A DNA stretch of 64,000 nt from Calditrichota bacterium (lineage in GTDB: Bacteria; Calditrichota; Calditrichia; RBG-13-44-9; J042). The position numbers and the translations under genes are program-made. Shown here one piece after another: positions 19,270-20,302 of this stretch. The notes under the pieces were generated by a model. That model was not told where the DNA came from. It saw only the letters and a list, made by a program, of their open reading frames with translations, and made no database searches. Numbering within the stretch: position 1 is the first letter of the stretch; each line of letters opens with the position of its first letter. The stretch covers positions 96,661-160,660 of the forward strand of contig JAADJD010000055.1 of NCBI GenBank assembly GCA_013150955.1. Reading direction: 5' to 3'.

Positions 19270-19332
19270 GCAAACCTGATTTTTTTCTACACTAAGGCTC
19301 ACCGCAATGAAACTGTCTTACTTCCAATAGAC

Positions 19333-19506
19333 TCAAAAACCGCGAAAACAAATCATGCGTATGACCACAGTAAAAACGTCCCGTCTTCAAGCTCCGGAGA
19401 ATGTAGACCACATACTCCAACAGCTGCCTCCCCTTAACCAAAAAAGGCAGGGAACCATCCCTGCCTGCTATCTAAGTCGGGGCGGCCAGATTTGAACTGG
19501 CGACCT
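19333..19506 (-). repeat. Duplicated segment: truncated GIY-YIG N-terminus + terminator + tRNA 3' half
   Basis: Near-identical to 19699..19872 (offset 365-366 bp). Confidence 0.85.
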
Positions 19507-19553
19507 TGGCGCACCGCGCCACGCTGCTAACCAGGCTGCGCTACAACACCCCC
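19477..19553 (-). pseudogene. Degenerate tRNA-Pro-like unit (copy 2)
   Basis: GTAGCGCAGCCTGGTTAGCAGCGTGGCGCGGTGCGCCAAGGTCGCCAGTTCAAATCTGGCCGCCCCGA; D-arm and T-arm kept, anticodon arm is TGGCG-CGGTG-CGCCA, 5' acceptor strand altered. Confidence 0.7.
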
Positions 19554-19786
19554 TGCTCCTTCAAAAATCGACCAATCCCTCGTCCCTTAATCCAGCGTTC
19601 CCGACGCACCGCCGACGAACGCGTCGCATGATACTCCCACCACACCAACACCCACGGAATCCCACTCCGCGTGGAAACCGTATCCCCACGATTGTGCCTC
19701 AAAAACCGCGAAAACAAATCATGCGTATGACCACAGTAAAAACGTCCCGTCTTCAAACTCCGGAGAATGTAGACCACGTACTCCAA
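19541..19786 (-). CDS. Single-domain GIY-YIG endonuclease
   Basis: MEYVVYILRSLKTGRFYCGHTHDLFSRFLRHNRGDTVSTRSGIPWVLVWWEYHATRSSAVRRERWIKG. Confidence 0.88.
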   Translation of the reverse strand: MEYVVYILRSLKTGRFYCGHTHDLFSRFLRHNRGDTVSTRSGIPWVLVWWEYHATRSSAVRRERWIKGRGIGRFLKEQGVL

Positions 19787-19803
19787 TAGCTGCCTCCCCT
19801 AAC

Positions 19804-19833
19804 TAAAAAAGGCAGGGAGTCTTCCCTGCCTGC
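19804..19833 (-). terminator. Terminator of tRNA-Pro(CGG)
   Basis: GGCAGGGAagactCCCTGCC followed by T-run on the minus strand. Confidence 0.75.
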
Positions 19834-19841
19834 TATCTAAG

Positions 19842-19916
19842 TCGGGGCGGCCAGATTTGAACTGGCGACCTCTTGGTCCCGAACCAAGCGCGCTAACCAG
19901 ACTGCGCTACGCCCCG
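19842..19916 (-). tRNA. tRNA-Pro(CGG)
   Basis: CGGGGCG TA GCGC..GCGC G CTTGG TTCGGGA CCAAG ... GCCAG TTCAAAT CTGGC CGCCCCG A; all four arms pair. Confidence 0.95.
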
Positions 19917-19946
19917 AATTTCCATCCTTTCAGCAACATTTACCAA

Positions 19947-20015
19947 AGAGCCAGATTTAAACTGGCGACCTTGGCGCCATGCGCCACGCAGCGAACCAGG
20001 CTGCGCTACGCCCCG
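19947..20015 (-). pseudogene. Degenerate tRNA-Pro-like unit (copy 3)
   Basis: CGGGGCGTAGCGCAGCCTGGTTCGCTGCGTGGCGCATGGCGCCAAGGTCGCCAGTTTAAATCTGGCTC; anticodon arm is TGGCGC-ATG-GCGCCA. Confidence 0.7.
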
Positions 20016-20075
20016 AATTCCTATCCTTTCAGCAACATTTACAAAAGATCCACATTTGAACGGGCATCCCTGGCT
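20016..20075 (-). repeat. Further tRNA-flank remnant (copy 4)
   Basis: GCCCCGAATTCCTATCCTTTCAGCAACATTTAC repeats the segment at 19911 with 99-bp period, then a decayed T-arm ATTTGAACGGGC. Confidence 0.6.
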
Positions 20076-20302
20076 TCTCGCTTCTACGCACCGCAAAAAC
20101 TTTCTGTCTTCCCACTTCAGAAATTTCGTCAAAGCTCCTCGGTCTTAACGGATGCCCTGACCTGACTATTCATTCTCCCAATTTTGGCGGCAAAATTTAG
20201 AAAGATTTTCGAATCAATTCAAGCCTTTTAAAAATATGAATGATTCAATGGGGGAAACGAATAAAGCTCAAAGAGGTTCCTGATTCGGGTGCATCCAATC
20301 CA

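Follow-up and report, generated by a model that had tools for sequence, protein, structure and literature searches.

A candidate tRNA-gene-resident repeat element with hairpin-tagged tRNA copies and an optional GIY-YIG nuclease in Calditrichota and other bacteria

The tRNA-Pro(CGG) array

The window analyzed here, 64,000 nucleotides of a contig from a Calditrichota bacterium, contains a tandem array of tRNA-Pro-derived units interleaved with a small nuclease gene. Read 5' to 3' on the minus strand, the array consists of a remnant, a tagged copy, the intact tRNA-Pro, a terminator, the GIY-YIG gene, a second tagged copy, a second terminator and a GIY-YIG fragment:

20046..20075, minus strand: third upstream tRNA-like unit, strongly decayed, a weak remnant (weak alignment; second 99-bp repeat unit)
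19950..20015, minus strand: upstream hairpin-tagged tRNA-Pro copy, 5' end intact, without the 3' acceptor strand
19972-19986, minus strand: hairpin of the upstream tagged copy
19841/19842-19916, minus strand: intact tRNA-Pro(CGG) (ARAGORN; Rfam RF00005, 68.2 bits)
19872-19888, minus strand: anticodon arm of the intact tRNA-Pro(CGG), CTTGG-TTCGGGA-CCAAG
19810..19831, minus strand: terminator-like hairpin 3' of the intact tRNA-Pro, arm AGGCAGGGAGTCTTCCCTGCCT, then TTTTTT
19541..19786, minus strand: GIY-YIG nuclease gene, 81 aa, TTG start (Pfam PF01541, E=5.7e-12)
about 19476..19550, minus strand: downstream hairpin-tagged tRNA-Pro copy, without the 5' acceptor strand, 3' end intact
19507-19521, minus strand: hairpin of the downstream tagged copy
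19445..19466, minus strand: second terminator copy (repeat comparison)
19332..19423, minus strand: truncated second copy of the 5' part of the GIY-YIG gene (93% over 30 aa)

An initial annotation of this DNA had placed an intact tRNA-Pro(CGG) at 19842-19916, where ARAGORN and Rfam agree on a minus-strand gene, and beside it a free-standing GIY-YIG gene, which corresponds to the 81-aa reading frame at 19786-19541 (minus strand; PF01541, E=5.7e-12). Both of the repeats that it described were recovered: the block duplicated at an offset of about 366 bp aligns at 94% identity (19332-19444 versus 19698-19810) and continues at 93% (19431-19506 versus 19796-19871), and the 99-bp period on the other side of the tRNA relates 19892-19975 to 19991-20074 at 86%. 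Its count of at least three decayed tRNA units holds for two clear copies (about 19476-19544 and 19950-20015), the third (20046-20075) being only a weak remnant. The best local tRNA-copy score at this locus (48.7, against a shuffled maximum of 16.9) is far above chance, and the TAG stop of the nuclease gene is formed by nucleotides 8-10 of the next tRNA-Pro copy.

Absent from that annotation, and added here, is the hairpin that replaces the anticodon arm in the window copies. The two clear copies have in common a 60-nt segment (90% identity) in which a TGGCGC..GCGCCA hairpin stands instead of the anticodon arm, and the predicted fold of the upstream one (19950..20015) comprises three hairpins and no acceptor stem (z -2.56). 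Rfam detected no intron in the window and the intact tRNA-Pro is uninterrupted, which argues against a group I intron. The tRNA copies also give rise to a spurious 79-aa reading frame (19893-20132, minus strand; GVAQPGS.. type) that is easily annotated as a protein.

Recurrence, tRNA linkage and the nuclease lineages

The initial annotation had suggested looking for the unit of tRNA and GIY-YIG gene elsewhere in the genome and in relatives, and both places yielded it. The host genome (G000) contains a second nuclease-bearing array, at tRNA-Glu(TTC) on contigs C24 and C50, with its parts in the same order: tandem tagged 5' copies, intact tRNA, terminator, GIY-YIG gene, tagged 3' copy, terminator and truncated GIY-YIG gene. 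The ends of these contigs overlap by 71 nt, and we infer that they join at the array. A relative of the nuclease occurs in 29 of 40 related genomes, and a scan of GTDB genomes, seeded with the Ser/Cys branch of the nuclease and hence over-representing tRNA-Ser, returned 553 relatives in Bacteroidota, Ignavibacteria, Chlorobiota, Balneolaceae, Verrucomicrobia, Omnitrophota, Patescibacteria and others, from which 80 loci were fetched.

These relatives are closely tied to tRNA genes. A tRNA lies within 500 bp of the nuclease at 67 of the 80 scan loci, never on the opposite strand. When both sets were pooled, 107 of 142 GIY-YIG genes had a same-strand tRNA within this distance and one had only an opposite-strand tRNA, compared with a chance expectation, by our own estimate from 45 tRNAs in 4 Mb, of about one linked gene in 142; among those with no nearby tRNA, 18 have a contig end within 300 bp. 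The ordinary UPF0213-like relatives that these genomes also encode form a separate branch of the tree and were tRNA-linked in none of 10 cases. Linkage is therefore the rule and not the exception, contrary to the possibility, entertained in the initial annotation, that this family had no other tRNA-linked copies. Its proposal of a small tRNA-targeting unit with a GIY-YIG gene gains from this result; duplication driven by the nuclease is unsupported in the form in which it was put forward.

The isotypes at nuclease loci include Ser, Glu, Pro, Cys, Leu, Asp, Asn, Val, Arg, Gln, Thr, Gly, His, Met and Lys. Of 105 testable nuclease genes, 85 have a second tRNA-like copy on their other flank, as a rule with one of the two copies intact and the other decayed. 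The parts occur in two mirror orders, either intact tRNA, nuclease and tagged copy, or tagged copy, nuclease and intact tRNA, and in the latter the median distance from stop codon to tRNA is 7 nt, overlaps included. The nuclease stop codon at one locus (L109) extends over the first two bases of the tRNA, and another locus (L148) carries three tandem units that end in a stop codon within the tRNA. As a rule, upstream copies retain the tRNA 5' end and lack the 3' acceptor strand, with the reverse in downstream copies. The end points of the copies vary, however, so that no single fixed insertion site is seen, which counts against reading the array as an element. At one locus (L057) the C-terminal tail of the nuclease (..EHPDFQSGGS) is encoded in frame by a hairpin-tagged tRNA-Val copy, and the tails at two others (L032 and L054) resemble it.

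The nuclease itself looks functional. The catalytic Y, Y-x-G, R, H and E residues are invariant in 36 relatives, and dN/dS is 0.06-0.12 in the three pairs with unsaturated dS, most other pairs being saturated. The AlphaFold2 model of the window protein (pLDDT 97) has as its closest solved structures the UPF0213 entry 1zg2, 1ywl and entries for SLX1, a branched-DNA nuclease; single-domain GIY-YIG proteins of the UPF0213/YhbQ type and SLX1 have both the fold and the catalytic residues in common with the present nucleases. Several members also match PHROG homing endonuclease families.

Across phyla, the nuclease lineages follow tRNA isotype. Isotype labels require 43 changes on the nuclease tree, versus 75.0 when shuffled (0 of 200 shuffles as low), on a short alignment with many open forks and with near-copies that add to the clustering; lineages at tRNA-Val, Asn and Thr are joined by starred branches. 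Members of the Ser/Cys branch had no match in 2.9 million viral contigs, leaving no known vehicle for transfer, which counts against an element, and a phage vehicle was rejected: Rhizobium phages gave weak matches, and the one examined had no annotated tRNA adjoining.

Hairpin-tagged copies with and without a nuclease

The hairpin occupies different parts of the tRNA in different arrays. Copies of tRNA-Glu(TTC), Val and Pro(CGG) have it in place of the anticodon arm, and those of tRNA-Asp in place of part of the T arm. In tRNA-Asn and Cys copies it replaces the region leading from the anticodon loop toward the T arm, and in one tRNA-Pro copy (L026) the D arm. In copies of tRNA-Ser and Glu(CTC), the usual insert is 22 nt long and made of two hairpins of 4 bp each with 3-nt loops. 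Across 34 distinct inserts this structure is formed in 92.6% of cells, but since the inserts were chosen by eye at the 22-nt length, which biases them toward structure, the compensatory counts outweigh the paired percentage: 37 compensatory cells versus 8.5 in shuffles. Their covariation score is 0.451 versus 0.174 shuffled (0 of 500 shuffles as high) and falls to 0.172 or less when the partner is slid by 1-3 columns. Among tRNA-Ser copies, 43 of 47 near-pure insertions fall within the D, anticodon or T loop.

These properties could indicate that the hairpin, rather than tRNA sequence, is what the nuclease recognizes. An enzyme of the UPF0213/SLX1 type may act on hairpins extruded from double-stranded DNA or formed in single-stranded DNA during replication, in which case the tagged copies would be the sites on which it works, comparable to attC or REP hairpins for their own enzymes, and cutting would amplify or move the cassette between them. 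Structural likeness to UPF0213 1zg2 and to the branched-DNA nuclease SLX1 fits this account, as does the preservation of the hairpins by structure rather than by sequence. Furthermore, the first hairpins mostly have purine-N-A loops and the second hairpins the complement, so that each strand would present one such mini-hairpin. TCCC..GGGA pairs are also six-fold denser around the nuclease than in the rest of these contigs (1.19 versus 0.20 per kb; 80 loci), and TCCCGAT..ATCGGGA occurs within the host genome only in the tRNA-Glu array. However, recognition of structure does not by itself account for nuclease lineages that follow isotype, and hairpin sequences differ widely within one genome; we consider this account unlikely, though with an appreciable chance of being correct. 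The same confinement and concentration at arrays led us to reject, for the sequences tested, a dispersed palindromic (REP-like) repeat as the source of the hairpins.

Compared with tRNAs of the same anticodon elsewhere, the local tRNA was the best match of the tagged copies at 69 of 73 loci (10.1 expected), indicating that the resident gene supplied their tRNA part, by copying or by conversion. The idea that the debris at the tRNA-Pro locus is what remains of a native tRNA after an imported one took its place was rejected: the clean tRNA-Pro of a congener (G001) corresponds to the intact copy and not to the tagged ones.

Alternatively, the tagged copies may serve at the RNA level: their transcripts would act as tRNA-like decoys or regulators, for instance in phage defence or against toxins that cut tRNA, and the GIY-YIG protein would act on RNA or on the decoy locus. 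Upstream copies do bear the tRNA 5' flank, probably with the promoter, and D and T arms are often kept, so that tRNA-like RNAs could form. The variation of the replaced arm by isotype (anticodon arm in Pro, Glu and Val; T arm in Asp; D arm in the L026 Pro copy) and the absence of one acceptor strand from the copies speak against it, as does the lack of any RNA family other than tRNA above gathering score. To our knowledge, moreover, GIY-YIG enzymes are cutters of DNA. A role in RNA seems very improbable to us, even though phage SegB loci are described as protective through higher tRNA dosage (PMC13096335).

Tagged copies are not restricted to loci with a nuclease. In the host genome, arrays without a nuclease are found after tRNA-Asn, Asp, Glu(CTC), Ser and Leu(CAA). 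Those at tRNA-Asn, Asp, Glu(CTC) and Ser(TGA) (L178, L183, L190 and L196) are tagged arrays with no GIY-YIG gene; in the tRNA-Ser(TGA) array, the tRNA copies are nearly full-length and carry the hairpin in the T loop. On contig C17, tRNA-Leu(CAA) is followed by seven units of 117 bp (L198 838-1600, L204 107-917), each combining the 3' part of the tRNA with a long T-loop hairpin and the terminator, again with no nuclease. Among six genomes scanned, tagged tRNAs numbered 9 of 44 in the host, 6 of 39 in G017, 5 of 35 in G024, 10 of 30 in G029, 1 of 31 in G030 and 0 of 44 in the congener G001. The contrast between host and congener hints at a strict correlation of arrays with nucleases, but G029 breaks it: a profile search of this draft genome (listed as 93% complete) found no GIY-YIG gene despite its 10 tagged tRNAs. 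Tagged copies therefore appear to be the broader phenomenon, with the nuclease present only in a subset, and the GIY-YIG protein is at most an optional or trans-acting partner. In G017, eight near-identical units of ~113 bp (tRNA-Ser 5' part and hairpin) stand between two tRNA-Ser genes (L012 1830-2737), with the insert at different positions in the upstream units and in the downstream copy.

The abundance of nuclease-free arrays favors a reading in which ordinary unequal recombination or slippage makes the copies, palindromic hairpin repeats arrive independently, and the GIY-YIG gene profits as a passenger from a tRNA promoter or a safe site. Tandem units are near-identical, as from recent slippage, and mitochondrial genomes offer a precedent in their double hairpin and repetitive hairpin-forming elements, which are short, single or doubled, carry complementary substitutions and can sit in RNA genes (PMC2800124); these are dispersed in organelle genomes, however, and are not known to us to be tied to partial tRNA copies or to a nuclease. 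The present hairpins are concentrated at arrays rather than dispersed, insertions cluster in tRNA loops, the nuclease lineages are isotype-specific, and tRNA copies flank the gene on both sides in 85 of 105 cases. A passenger nuclease strikes us as unlikely. Simple local slippage as a full account was rejected in view of the recurrence across phyla, the isotype-specific nuclease lineages and the structured hairpins with their compensatory changes.

The comparison of empty sites proposed in the initial annotation could be made with the congener. Its tRNA-Pro(CGG), 99% identical over 77 nt to that of the window, adjoins the same purU-like gene and has no copies and no nuclease, and its downstream flank bears no similarity to the nuclease unit of the window. 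The locus is thus filled in the host and empty in G001, but the empty state could have arisen by loss. At tRNA-Glu(TTC), G001 has no open nuclease gene, but the DNA retains similarity to one (177 versus a shuffled maximum of 138; 116 versus 102 without the terminator) as well as a TCCCGATGGGCATCGGGA hairpin (L170, 393-410). A decayed GIY-YIG remnant is therefore probable at this locus (L170 300-480), and, given that remnant, at least one loss of the nuclease within the genus is likely.

A candidate element and its known counterparts

The anatomy of these arrays, their recurrence, isotype specificity and hairpin structure, and the local origin of the tRNA copies are well supported. We tentatively explain them by a repeat element resident in tRNA genes, with an optional and probably mobilizing nuclease of the SLX1/UPF0213 type that works as SegB does, an explanation to which we give a little less than an even chance. 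Its unit would be a partial copy of the resident tRNA, with a hairpin in one arm or loop, together with the promoter-side or terminator-side flank of that tRNA; autonomous units would additionally carry a gene for a GIY-YIG protein of ~80 aa between two tRNA copies. Cutting, repair-driven spread and immunity of the tagged copy are steps that we infer. By analogy with the SegB-driven amplification of tRNA-segB segments, each nuclease lineage would recognize one isotype and cut the tRNA gene of that isotype, or one of its copies, and repair of the break by recombination with a neighboring copy would duplicate or move the unit. Selection would retain one intact tRNA, the hairpin would turn the other copy into a non-tRNA and perhaps into an uncut site, and nuclease-free copies would be non-autonomous or left-over members. 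The arrays with no GIY-YIG gene in cis, those of G029 among them, count against this element, as does the intact tRNA: it is uninterrupted while one copy carries the hairpin, which leaves the avoidance of self-cutting unexplained.

The closest known counterpart is SegB of phages T4 and T6, whose nuclease activity, along with recombination proteins, is required to amplify the tRNA-segB segment (PMC13096335). Like the nuclease in the window, SegB is a free-standing GIY-YIG protein, a homing endonuclease encoded in a tRNA cluster (in T4, AF158101, 5 bp from tRNA-Arg and 41 bp from tRNA-Ile), and the two systems have tRNA linkage across many isotypes in common, with SegB driving tandem amplification of tRNA-nuclease segments (PMC13096335). 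However, SegB is 221 aa long with an extra C-terminal part, compared with ~80 aa here, and its hhalign match to the present nucleases is weak (probability 44%) and covers the GIY-YIG part only, which does not support full-length homology or orthology. Furthermore, SegB is phage-borne, whereas Ser/Cys branch relatives were not found in viral contigs, and hairpin-tagged tRNA copies are not known to us from SegB loci. With its homing-family domain and target-specific lineages, the present nuclease may nevertheless work like a tRNA-linked free-standing homing nuclease.

Two other systems resemble the arrays in part. The tyrT repeats of E. coli and Salmonella (rtT RNA) are likewise tandem repeats located 3' of a tRNA gene, whose 3' end is present in every unit. 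They are known to us from one locus, and we know of no nuclease or hairpin-tagged arm associated with them. Integrases of prophages and genomic islands that target tRNA genes also insert at such genes and leave a partial tRNA copy behind; they belong to kilobase-scale elements with a recombinase, and their tRNA-end copies lack hairpins. rtT is listed as a 175-bp VNTR (PMC2658671), and an Rfam search of the arrays tested found no RtT match up to E = 0.1.

Our searches of the open-access literature found no bacterial description of such tRNA-hairpin-nuclease arrays. They may therefore represent an undescribed class of chromosomal element that copies its host tRNA gene, tags the copy with a hairpin, employs an isotype-specific 80-aa GIY-YIG protein in cis or in trans, always leaves one tRNA intact, and occurs in Calditrichota, Bacteroidota, Ignavibacteria, Verrucomicrobia, Omnitrophota, Patescibacteria and others; we hold this view tentatively, with confidence somewhat short of even. 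If it is correct, tRNA genes, which are essential and among the most conserved loci, are parasitized by means of a very small nuclease, and the arrays offer a compact model of how a selfish element targets an essential gene, with lineages matched to single isotypes across phyla. It would also account for assembly breaks and odd reading frames next to tRNA genes, and it makes testable whether GIY-YIG-driven tandem amplification operates in bacterial chromosomes as it does with SegB in phage.

Apart from the array, the plus strand of the window carries two Acido-Lenti-1 RNA matches (119-163 and 460-504), 341 bp apart.
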